This document shows, in pieces, positions 4,619-7,757 of a DNA stretch of 63,870 nt. The first letter of the stretch is position 1. Each line of letters starts with the position of its first letter. The notes under the pieces are model-generated. The model saw only the letters and a program-made list of their open reading frames with translations, had not been told where the DNA came from and did no database searches. The DNA lies in NCBI GenBank assembly GCA_002254885.1, contig NJDG01000004.1, forward strand, positions 1 to 63,870. Reading direction: 5' to 3'. The DNA is from Thermoplasmatales archaeon ex4572_165 (GTDB taxonomy: Archaea > Thermoplasmatota > E2 > DHVEG-1). The translations under genes and the position numbers were made by a program.

Positions 4619-5065
4619 TTATAGTGCAATTGTTGGGGTGCGCTTATACACATCTAATAATAAAGATACATGGATTTTTTTATCAACACCTTTAATTGTT
4701 TTAATATTTGCATTGATAAACTTCCATATCTCTTTTCCATTTCTTGCGATTAATTGAATGATGAGATCATGATCTCCTGAGGATGTTGCAACATTTTGTA
4801 CTTCATTAAAGTTGGAGAGATGTTCTGCGATTTCATCCATTTTTAATGGTTCCACATTCAATCCTATTACTGCTGTTGCATCAAAACCAACTTTTTCAGG
4901 ATCGAGTATTGCAGATACTGATGTTATGATTCCTAGTTTTTTTAGTTTTGAAATTCTATAATGAATAGTACTTGTTCCAACATCCAATTCTTTTGCAATT
5001 GTTTGATATGAAATCGTTGCATCATTTTGAATAATATTCAATATTTTTCTATCAATGTCATCCAT
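4619..5065 (-). CDS. Lrp/AsnC-family transcriptional regulator
   Basis: A 148-residue full-length Lrp/AsnC protein. The N-terminal winged helix-turn-helix opens MDDIDRKILNIIQNDA and includes TISYQTIAKELDVGTSTIHY; a C-terminal RAM (ligand-binding, oligomerising) domain contains SGDHDLIIQL. The frame is open further upstream, but ATG at 5065 matches the family start exactly and lies about 27 bases from a TATA-like ATTTAAAT, which suggests a leaderless mRNA. Lrp proteins bind amino acids or related ligands and control metabolic genes, often divergent neighbours and themselves. The acyl-CoA synthetase gene is divergent, so it is a likely target (inference). Confidence 0.92.
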   Translation of the reverse strand: MDDIDRKILNIIQNDATISYQTIAKELDVGTSTIHYRISKLKKLGIITSVSAILDPEKVGFDATAVIGLNVEPLKMDEIAEHLSNFNEVQNVATSSGDHDLIIQLIARNGKEIWKFINANIKTIKGVDKKIHVSLLLDVYKRTPTIAL

Positions 5066-5081
5066 ATAACCCCATAATATT

Positions 5082-5102
5082 GAATAATATTTAAATGTAT
5101 TC
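5082..5102. promoter_or_regulatory. TATA box and imperfect palindrome between lrp-like gene and acyl-CoA synthetase
   Basis: The sequence GAATA-ATATTTAAATG-TATTC has inverted GAATA/TATTC ends around a TATA-like core. On the minus strand the core lies about 27 bases before the regulator's ATG. A second small inverted repeat, GTATT...AATAC, begins at 5097. A plausible TATA for the plus-strand gene is AATTATAAATAG at about 5139-5150, with a GGATG ribosome site before ATG 5214. The palindrome overlapping the regulator's own TATA suggests autoregulation. Confidence 0.45.
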
Positions 5103-5213
5103 GTATAAAATACTAAATTAATAGGTTTTATATCGACAATTATAAATAGTTGAGCCCAATATCCGCAATTCAATTAGAATATCTAAAAAATAATAAAAAA
5201 AGGATGTAAAAAA

Positions 5214-7757
5214 ATGGGCATTGAACATCTAGATAAGATATTTAAAGCAAAAAGCATCGCCGTAGTTGGCGCAAGTAATAAGAGAGAAGCAGCAGGATAC
5301 CGCATCTTTCGAAACCTAATTGGTTCCGGATTTGAAGGCATTGTTTATCCTGTAAACCCAAAACATGAAAGTGTACAAGGAGTACAAGCGTACAAATCAC
5401 AAAGATCCTCAGTCTTAAATACTATTTCATCAAACATATTTGTTAAAAATACAGTTTTATCTCCATTTAAATTTATAGGGCCTAATTGCGTAGGAATCAT
5501 CAATCCATTCCTCAACCTTAATGCAACCTTTGCAGGTACCATGCCCCTCAACGGAAACATTGCACTTTTTTCTCAAAGTGGGGCAATATGTGGATCTCTT
5601 CTTGATTGGGCTGCATCCTCACGTGTGGGTTTCAGCTCATTTGTTTCAGTAGGATCTATGTTAGATGTTGATTTTGGAGATCTTATTGATTATTTTGGAA
5701 GAGACATTCATACAAAAAGCATTGTTCTCTATGTTGAATCAATAACTCAGGCAAGGAAATTTATGAGTGCTGCTCGAAGTTTTGCTCGTTCAAAACCAAT
5801 CATCGTAATAAAATCAGGAAGATATGCAGAAGGTGCAAAAGCAGCAGCATCCCATACCGGAGCTCTTGCAGGAGAAGATGCAATTTATGATGCTGCATTC
5901 CAACGAGCAGGTGTCGTTAGAGTTAAAGAAATTGATGAATTATTCAATTGTGCATCTATTCTTGCAAAACAGCCTCGTCCACGTGGACCAAACCTTGCAA
6001 TAATAACAAATGCCGGAGGACCCGGTGTTCTTGCAACAGATTCAATCATTGAAAACAATGGAAAACTTGCTCAATTATCTGATGAAACCATGGAAAAACT
6101 AAATGCTTTCCTTCCAACTCATTGGAGCCATTCAAATCCAATTGACATCATCGGAGACAGCGATGATGAAGTCTATAAGAAAACAATTGAGGTTTGTTTA
6201 GAAGATAAAAACATTGATGGAATCCTTGTGATATCCGTACCTCAAGTTGTAGCAGACCCTAAGAAACTCGCAGATGCCGTTATTGATATTTCCAAGAAAT
6301 CAACAAAACCAATTCTAACTAGTTTTGTCGGCGAGGAAAGCGTACAATATGCAAGACAAATTCTAAATCGAAATAATGTTCCAACATATCACACGCCAGA
6401 AGGGGCGGTACGTTCATATATGCATCTATATCATTACGCTCGTAACCTCGAGATCTTATTTGAAACACCCATCGAACGTATTGTGAAGGACAAAAAAGCT
6501 AGTGAAAAAAACATTCATGAAATTATCAAAAACGCAAAAAGGGAAAATCGAACTCTTCTAACCGAAGATGAATCAAAATCCATTGTTAATTATTATGGGA
6601 TTCAAACCACAGAAACAATACTTGCAAAAAACAAAAAAGAAGCAATGCAAATTGCAAAAAAAATAGGATATCCCGTTGTAATGAAAATTCATTCACCTAA
6701 TATTAGTCATAAAAGTGATAGTGGCGGTGTGATTCTTAATATCTGCAATGATGAAGAAGTGGAAAAAGCATATACGAAAATGATTGCAGATGTAAAAAAA
6801 GCCGAACCTGGCGCAAAAATAAATGGAGTCACAATCCAACAGATGATAGATGCTCAAAGCCCTGAATTTATCTTAGGCTCAAAAAAAGATCCCATCTTTG
6901 GTTCAGTTATTCTTTTCGGAATGGGTGGAATATATACTGAACTGTTCAAAGATAAATCAATTGGAATCCCTCCATTAAATCAGGCTCTATCTCAACAAAT
7001 ACTCAAACAGACCAAGGCATATTCATTGCTAACAGGATATCGAAATCTTGTCGCACCAGACATGAAAAAAGTAGAGGAGACAATGATTAATTTTTCTCAC
7101 CTCATTGAAGATTTTCCAGAGATAAAAGAAATTGATTTAAATCCTTTGAAATCAACAGATAAAGGCCTTATTGCAGTTGATGCAAGAATAATTATTGATG
7201 AACATCCTAATAAACATCCTCATTTAATCATCAGTAAATATCCAAGTCATTATCAAAAGAATATTACATTAAAAGATGGTACAAAAATTCTATTACGACC
7301 AATAAAACCTGAAGATGAATATCTCTGGCTTGACATGTTTAACACATTTTCACAGCAATCAGTACGTTTTAGGTTCTTCAGATTAATCAAAGAAGCAGAT
7401 CATGCAATGCGTGTACGGTTTTGTAATATTGATTATGACCGTGAAGTTGGAATTGTTGCAGAAATTGAAGAAGATGGGAAAAAACGATTTCTTGGCGTAA
7501 CTCGTATTATTCTTCCACCTGGAGAAAAAGATGAAGTTGAATTTGCGTTGATTGTAACGGATAAATGGCAACGTAGAGGCTTAGGTTCTGAATTTCTTGA
7601 TTTTACTATTGAAATGGCAAAAATGAAAGGGGTGAAACGAATTGTTGGCGAGGTTCTTAAAGAAAATAGATCGATGATTAAGCTTTGTAAAGATAAACAA
7701 TTTGAAATATCAAGATCAAAAGATCCTGAGGTCTACAATTTAGAATACGTTATTTAA
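5214..7757 (+). CDS. ADP-forming acyl-CoA synthetase (alpha-beta fusion) with C-terminal GNAT domain
   Basis: This 847-aa fusion has, in order, a CoA-binding Rossmann domain (about 1-120), a succinyl-CoA-ligase-like flavodoxin domain (to about 430), an ATP-grasp domain (about 450-670) and a GNAT acetyltransferase (about 685-845, with WQRRGLGSEF for acetyl-CoA). NDP-forming acyl-CoA synthetases make ATP from acyl-CoA in fermenting archaea. The same layout occurs in Pat/PatZ lysine acetylases, where the synthetase part is reported inactive. Here both catalytic histidines are present: SHTGALAG (H214) and ISHKSD (H499). This favours synthetase activity, perhaps with GNAT control. Oddly, only about 20 residues separate AYKS (near 62) from FIGPNC (near 81), where the family normally has about 65-70, so part of the CoA-binding fold is missing. 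Confidence 0.88.
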   Translation: MGIEHLDKIFKAKSIAVVGASNKREAAGYRIFRNLIGSGFEGIVYPVNPKHESVQGVQAYKSQRSSVLNTISSNIFVKNTVLSPFKFIGPNCVGIINPFLNLNATFAGTMPLNGNIALFSQSGAICGSLLDWAASSRVGFSSFVSVGSMLDVDFGDLIDYFGRDIHTKSIVLYVESITQARKFMSAARSFARSKPIIVIKSGRYAEGAKAAASHTGALAGEDAIYDAAFQRAGVVRVKEIDELFNCASILAKQPRPRGPNLAIITNAGGPGVLATDSIIENNGKLAQLSDETMEKLNAFLPTHWSHSNPIDIIGDSDDEVYKKTIEVCLEDKNIDGILVISVPQVVADPKKLADAVIDISKKSTKPILTSFVGEESVQYARQILNRNNVPTYHTPEGAVRSYMHLYHYARNLEILFETPIERIVKDKKASEKNIHEIIKNAKRENRTLLTEDESKSIVNYYGIQTTETILAKNKKEAMQIAKKIGYPVVMKIHSPNISHKSDSGGVILNICNDEEVEKAYTKMIADVKKAEPGAKINGVTIQQMIDAQSPEFILGSKKDPIFGSVILFGMGGIYTELFKDKSIGIPPLNQALSQQILKQTKAYSLLTGYRNLVAPDMKKVEETMINFSHLIEDFPEIKEIDLNPLKSTDKGLIAVDARIIIDEHPNKHPHLIISKYPSHYQKNITLKDGTKILLRPIKPEDEYLWLDMFNTFSQQSVRFRFFRLIKEADHAMRVRFCNIDYDREVGIVAEIEEDGKKRFLGVTRIILPPGEKDEVEFALIVTDKWQRRGLGSEFLDFTIEMAKMKGVKRIVGEVLKENRSMIKLCKDKQFEISRSKDPEVYNLEYVI

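Follow-up and report, generated by a model that had tools for sequence, protein, structure and literature searches.

A synthetase–acetyltransferase fusion gene from a Thermoplasmatales archaeon with a probable in-frame replacement in its CoA-binding domain

The stretch of DNA analysed here (the window) is 63,870 nucleotides (nt) of contig NJDG01000004.1 from Thermoplasmatales archaeon ex4572_165, and its plus strand carries, at 5214–7757, an open reading frame (ORF) of 847 residues that joins an NDP-forming acyl-coenzyme A (CoA) synthetase to a C-terminal GNAT domain. Homology to the family of such fusions stops after residue 62 and restarts at residue 85, and the 22 residues in between take the place of 64 residues that cover β3-α3-β4-α4 of the CoA-binding Rossmann subdomain. 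On balance, we favor a real and fairly recent in-frame replacement that broke the CoA pocket of the synthetase in a displaced and less constrained gene. The features on which this rests are as follows.

5214–7757, plus strand: ORF of the NDP-forming acyl-CoA synthetase–GNAT fusion, 847 residues (ORF call, Pfam, structure matches)
5214–5399, plus strand: residues 1–62, N-terminal half of the CoA-binding Rossmann subdomain, well conserved (Pfam, family alignment)
5400–5465, plus strand: residues 63–84, 22 unrelated residues where relatives have 64 (alignment, model, coding score)
5466–5552, plus strand: residues 85–113, return of family homology at FKFIGPNC (alignment)
5553–5963, plus strand: residues 114–250, Succ_CoA_lig domain with phospho-histidine H214 (Pfam, structure alignment, motif)
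6534–7196, plus strand: residues 441–661, ATP-grasp domain with H499 (Pfam, structure alignment, motif)
7236–7748, plus strand: residues 675–845, GNAT domain with QRRGLG (Pfam, structure alignment, motif)
4619–5173, minus strand: adjoining Lrp/AsnC-type regulator gene, divergent from the fusion gene (ORF, Pfam)

The replaced segment

The first-pass annotation of this DNA had noticed about 20 residues of odd composition, where 65–70 are usual, between AYKS and FIGPNC of a correspondingly short protein, and measurement bears this out. AYKS (residues 59–62) is followed by the 22 unrelated residues and then by FKFIGPNC, so that YPVN and GPNC stand 44 codons apart, whereas each of the 21 distinct family segments, from 21 genomes, has exactly 86. 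The same spacing is 87 codons in the Phycisphaerales homologue L031 and 86 in the more distant L018 and L033; left outside the count of 21 were L031, the distant L013–L018 and L033 (L013–L017 being distant homologues missed by the YPVN–GPNC search pattern), and the fragments L012 and L032, which lack this part. The Pfam CoA_binding_2 profile is covered only from 1 to 54 of its 116 positions in the short protein, compared with 1–114 and 3–115 in two full-length relatives, and in the model of a full-length control the missing part corresponds to strands 72–75 and 96–99 and helices 79–92 and 114–125.

The short form is not common to a clade. Searches of 45 family genomes found it in none of the 21 others with a match (23 had no match), so the possibility, raised in the first-pass annotation, that orthologues share it was not borne out. 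A search of 80 genomes of the class, the 45 included, likewise showed no short form; its 67-residue probe has no match in the remaining genomes and would miss distant homologues.

The 22 residues fit the missing 64 no better than shuffles do (gapped alignment, P 0.93 to 0.97; one clean deletion, P 0.81), which rules out a single clean deletion as well as several small ones. Two compensating frameshifts are ruled out too, as the other frames of the insert are unlike the missing segment in 10 relatives. Nor does the insert DNA match the missing segment on either strand beyond shuffles among the 21 family segments. As the insert fits on neither the protein nor the DNA level, we regard it as a replacement and not a trimmed remnant. 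Thus, of the earlier proposal of a true deletion altering CoA binding, the loss of the domain core stands and the deletion gives way to an exchange.

The insert has a G+C content of 26%, compared with 36% for the whole gene, and its in-frame coding score is below that of all 70 other 66-base windows of the fusion gene, although among 1624 coding windows from the contig as a whole 5.5% score no higher. Its score is higher on the minus strand (4.54) than on the plus strand (0.94), a difference found in 0.7% of these coding windows; as for the minus-strand score itself, 4.6% of 454 noncoding windows score as high in their best of six frames, and 21% of the 1624 coding windows do so on the antisense strand. 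Because of its higher minus-strand score, the insert may derive from another gene in inverted orientation, for which the score is only a hint. The frame remains open across the swap; in any given frame this is true of only 268 of 1408 intergenic 66-mers (19%) and of 483 of 3260 out-of-frame coding 66-mers (15%), and the length of the insert must also suit the reading frame.

Searches for the source of the insert found no second copy in its own assembly, where the best other match covers 35 bases at 83%. Its weak AT-rich matches reach an E value of 6e-4 in its own genome and 1.2e-5 in one relative, and we judge them to be chance from the number of such matches (21 in its own genome besides itself at E up to 10), a judgement made without shuffled queries. 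The minus-strand peptide gave one match in 24 relatives (E 0.6). Further searches gave no match in Pfam, one in PHROGs (E 0.099), none in viral contigs and one in phages (E 0.09).

Domain structure and constraint

The flanks of the replaced segment and the catalytic motifs are intact. Pfam finds, in order, a partial CoA-binding domain, the succinyl-CoA-ligase flavodoxin-like domain, the CoA-ligase domain, ATP-grasp, and GNAT. As already suggested by the first reading of the sequence, both catalytic histidines are kept, H214 and H499 aligning with H256 and H535 of the ADP-forming synthetase Nmar_0206 (numbering from PMC11494057), in phospho-histidine motifs at 5838–5861 and 6702–6719. The GNAT domain is likewise intact, and its QRRGLG fits the P-loop pattern Arg/Gln-x-x-Gly-x-Gly/Ala given in PMC8556138. 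The top solved-structure matches are chains 9it0 and 9isq, each named a protein acetyltransferase, and Nmar_0206 (8wzu); the alignment to 9it0 spans residues 85–833. The closest named genomes with the fusion are Thermoplasmata archaea (L029 and L030 with the whole protein, L032 with a fragment), and the short protein is 63–68% identical to twelve full-length archaeal relatives over the alignable length.

One set of six sequences, five of them extending to the N-terminus, served to model both the short protein and the full-length L029. Modelling of the Rossmann domain, which had been proposed as a check, gave no confident fold over residues 1–110 of the short form, where mean predicted local distance difference test (pLDDT) scores per block are 25–41 and there are almost no strands, despite the conservation of residues 1–62. 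In the control most of the CoA-binding domain could be modelled, with strands and helices and block means of 56–85 over residues 1–130 except for one of 39: the first six ten-residue blocks score 68, 76, 63, 70, 56 and 39, and residues 61–130 score 58–85. The complete CoA-binding Rossmann subdomain 1 of ADP-forming synthetases is thus absent from the short protein. In Nmar_0206 (PMC11494057), one monomer is described as contributing subdomains 1 and 2 to the CoA pocket and the other as contributing subdomain 5, so by analogy CoA binding would be expected to suffer when subdomain 1 is lost.

We suggest that, in an orthologue of the conserved thermoplasmatal fusion, 192 nt (64 codons) were exchanged in frame for 66 nt of unrelated AT-rich DNA. 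Subdomain 1 would then no longer form its share of the CoA pocket. With the pocket lost and the histidines kept, ATP could still phosphorylate H499 and H214, and transfer to CoA would be lost or much weakened. The GNAT domain may still be made, without its acetyl-CoA-sensing partner, and the departure from the locus of the congeners together with faster evolution would suit relaxed constraint or early decay.

Constraint was assessed from positions invariant among the twelve relatives, a set that gains or loses a few members depending on the row omitted. The short protein has changed 2 of 28 such positions in residues 1–63 (relatives 0–2), 2 of 15 in residues 84–113 (0–2), one of them being the last residue of the insert, 1 of 90 in residues 114–250 (0–3), 3 of 75 in residues 251–412 (0–4), 6 of 84 in the ATP-grasp residues 441–661 (0–6), and 7 of 67 in the GNAT residues 675–845 (0–4), the highest GNAT count of any row. 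By these counts, the fusion gene is under constraint, with departures commonest in GNAT and beside the insert. What is left of the broken domain shows no special relaxation. The change in it would be either recent or not real.

In a tree, the short protein groups with its congeners L002 and L006 with support of 91/89, below the tool's mark of 95, on a terminal branch of 0.62 compared with 0.20 and 0.25 for the congeners. A three-way comparison puts its branch at 2.03 times the mean of the congeners when residues 63–84 are omitted and at 2.22 times when they are included, and the same ratio for six other proteins is 0.96–1.85.

A real replacement or an assembly error

Taking all readings together, we consider it likely that the short form is real, because the frame is open, the insert has no second copy, no like loss is seen in 13 other proteins, the gene setting has changed (see below) and, more weakly, the evolutionary rate is raised. 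We hold the specific reading of a recent replacement that breaks the CoA pocket with somewhat less confidence, and several points weigh against it. The short form is known from one draft assembly, 72.86% complete and in 55 contigs, and none of the 21 further family genomes that carry the gene has it. Neither its own genome nor 24 relatives offer a convincing source of the 66-nt insert. The remaining half of the CoA-binding domain is not clearly relaxed, as might also be expected of an artefact superimposed on an otherwise intact gene. The signal from rate is weak, with two of the six other proteins reaching 1.71 and 1.85, and the neighbouring Lrp protein, the fastest of eight, has a branch 4.14 times the congeners' mean (3.85 in another count), so that the raised rate may be regional and not specific to the fusion gene. 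The models, built from shallow six-sequence alignments, are a comparison and not a structure.

The strongest rival is a local assembly error, in which the domain is full-length in the organism itself and the assembler linked two DNA pieces, or a strain variant, across 5400–5465. We rate it as unlikely and yet far from negligible. The incomplete draft, the restriction of the short form to one genome, the low in-frame coding score of an insert that scores better on the minus strand, and the hardly relaxed half-domain would all be in keeping with a wrong join. Such a join would, however, have had to keep the frame exactly, open through 22 AT-rich codons, and there is no second copy of the insert to explain it. 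Further, none of 13 other proteins aligned with their congeners (five from the window and eight from contig C6) has a comparable core-segment loss, the other gaps of length at least 8 being confined to the N-termini of two open frames and to the border of an intein in UvrB. If it were an error after all, the case would advise caution in inferring a lost domain from one draft genome alone.

Alternatively, the change might be adaptive, the short segment serving as a compact new linker in an acetyltransferase freed of its CoA ligase, or with a GNAT domain independent of acetyl-CoA sensing. This would suit an intact ORF that keeps the GNAT motif, the ATP-grasp domain and both histidines and that now stands away from the deacetylase gene of its relatives, in a new setting beside an Lrp regulator. 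We nonetheless think it improbable: Escherichia coli PatZ and Salmonella enterica Pat are described in PMC8556138 as needing the synthetase part for acetyltransferase activity, the model has no ordered replacement fold, and GNAT is the domain in which the short protein departs from invariant positions more than any other row. Slightly less probable still is the fuller version, an acetyltransferase that lost the CoA pocket of its fused synthetase by swapping a Rossmann core for a short foreign stretch and acetylates proteins without acetyl-CoA sensing, away from a partner deacetylase.

The first-pass annotation also proposed an inversion artefact. An inversion of the missing segment itself, with small losses, is scarcely credible: one reverse-strand comparison, with L003, gave P 0.003 among 20 tests (query of 71 bases), but over the 21 family segments with dinucleotide shuffles the reverse-strand similarity was ordinary (P 0.44 for the best and 0.71 for the mean; query of 62 bases), and six reading frames set against the missing protein segment of 10 relatives gave no match (lowest P 0.14).

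Known systems and gene neighborhood

The short protein resembles two known systems. The type I GNAT acetyltransferases (Salmonella Pat, E. coli PatZ) are the likeness seen in the best structure matches, 9it0 and 9isq; these chains, however, include the stretch that the short protein skips and have no histidine where it has H214, whereas the short protein carries both histidines. The synthetase domains of type I (bacterial Pat-type) fusions are described as inactive (PMC8556138), and the missing catalytic histidine that goes with this is not a feature of the short protein. ADP-forming acyl-CoA synthetases such as Nmar_0206 share its domain order ahead of GNAT, both phospho-histidines and ATP-grasp, but compared with Nmar_0206 its subdomain 1 is incomplete and GNAT is added. 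Closest are the full-length archaeal fusions, including L002 and L006 of the same genus as well as L029 and L030, which differ in the length of the segment, and common descent with the copies of the congeners places the short protein in the thermoplasmatal fusion family. Because it has the histidine that type I Pat is missing and lacks the complete subdomain 1 of the synthetases, we class it as an orthologue of the archaeal fusion that has been damaged, without full membership of either group. If it works at all, it would do so in the manner of a type I synthetase–GNAT acetyltransferase, lysine acetylation being predicted from its GNAT domain and QRRGLG. A limited literature search found no description of such a short form. 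If real, it would be a natural experiment: with both phospho-histidines but no CoA pocket, the ligase and acetyltransferase roles would be uncoupled in a fusion whose archaeal members seem capable of both.

In nearly all rows of the archaeal fusions both phospho-histidine motifs are retained, the exceptions being L055, in which the pattern did not detect the first, and the fragment L045, which is without the second. Because both are kept, unlike in 9it0 and 9isq, which lack the first, these fusions may be bifunctional.

Among the 21 further family genomes (loci L002–L011, L029, L030, L035–L051), the gene directly upstream of the fusion is of the histone-deacetylase family in 11, encodes pyruvate:ferredoxin oxidoreductase (PFOR) in 8, and was recognised as neither in 2; these neighbors were called by similarity to one reference per gene, and Pfam confirmed the references. 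The deacetylase-family gene is on the same strand as the fusion, and L029 has, upstream of PFOR, a deacetylase-like piece truncated where the locus ends. From gene order, the neighborhood of deacetylase, PFOR and fusion looks like an acetylation/deacetylation operon tied to acetyl-CoA supply. This recurrent archaeal pairing of a deacetylase-family gene with a synthetase–acetyltransferase is testable, and we consider the comparison more useful than the lesion itself.

Unlike the full-length fusions of its genus, which have a deacetylase-family gene directly upstream, the short-form gene has the divergent Lrp gene as its upstream neighbor; the orthologue of the latter lies about 10 kb from the fusion in the congener G002 and on another contig in G001. 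In G002, the deacetylase gene, the fusion and a few other genes lie between uvrB and a pair of genes for a small protein and a PRC-barrel protein. At the matching site in the genome of the short form, uvrB is followed by a NosD-like gene, the small-protein gene and the PRC-barrel gene, and neither the fusion nor the deacetylase gene is there. Judged from gene order, the short-form gene is thus displaced from the locus of its congeners' copies. The only deacetylase-family match to the G002 gene in its own genome is 33% identical and on another contig (C34, L070:2558–3565), and at 72.86% completeness absence of the gene elsewhere in the genome is not proved.

The uvrB gene of this genome, on contig C6 (L089:3457–6846), encodes an intein of about 520 residues in the P-loop, between GVTGSGK and TFTMA, identified by Pfam as Intein_splicing and LAGLIDADG_3; the UvrB frame of G002 has 649 residues.
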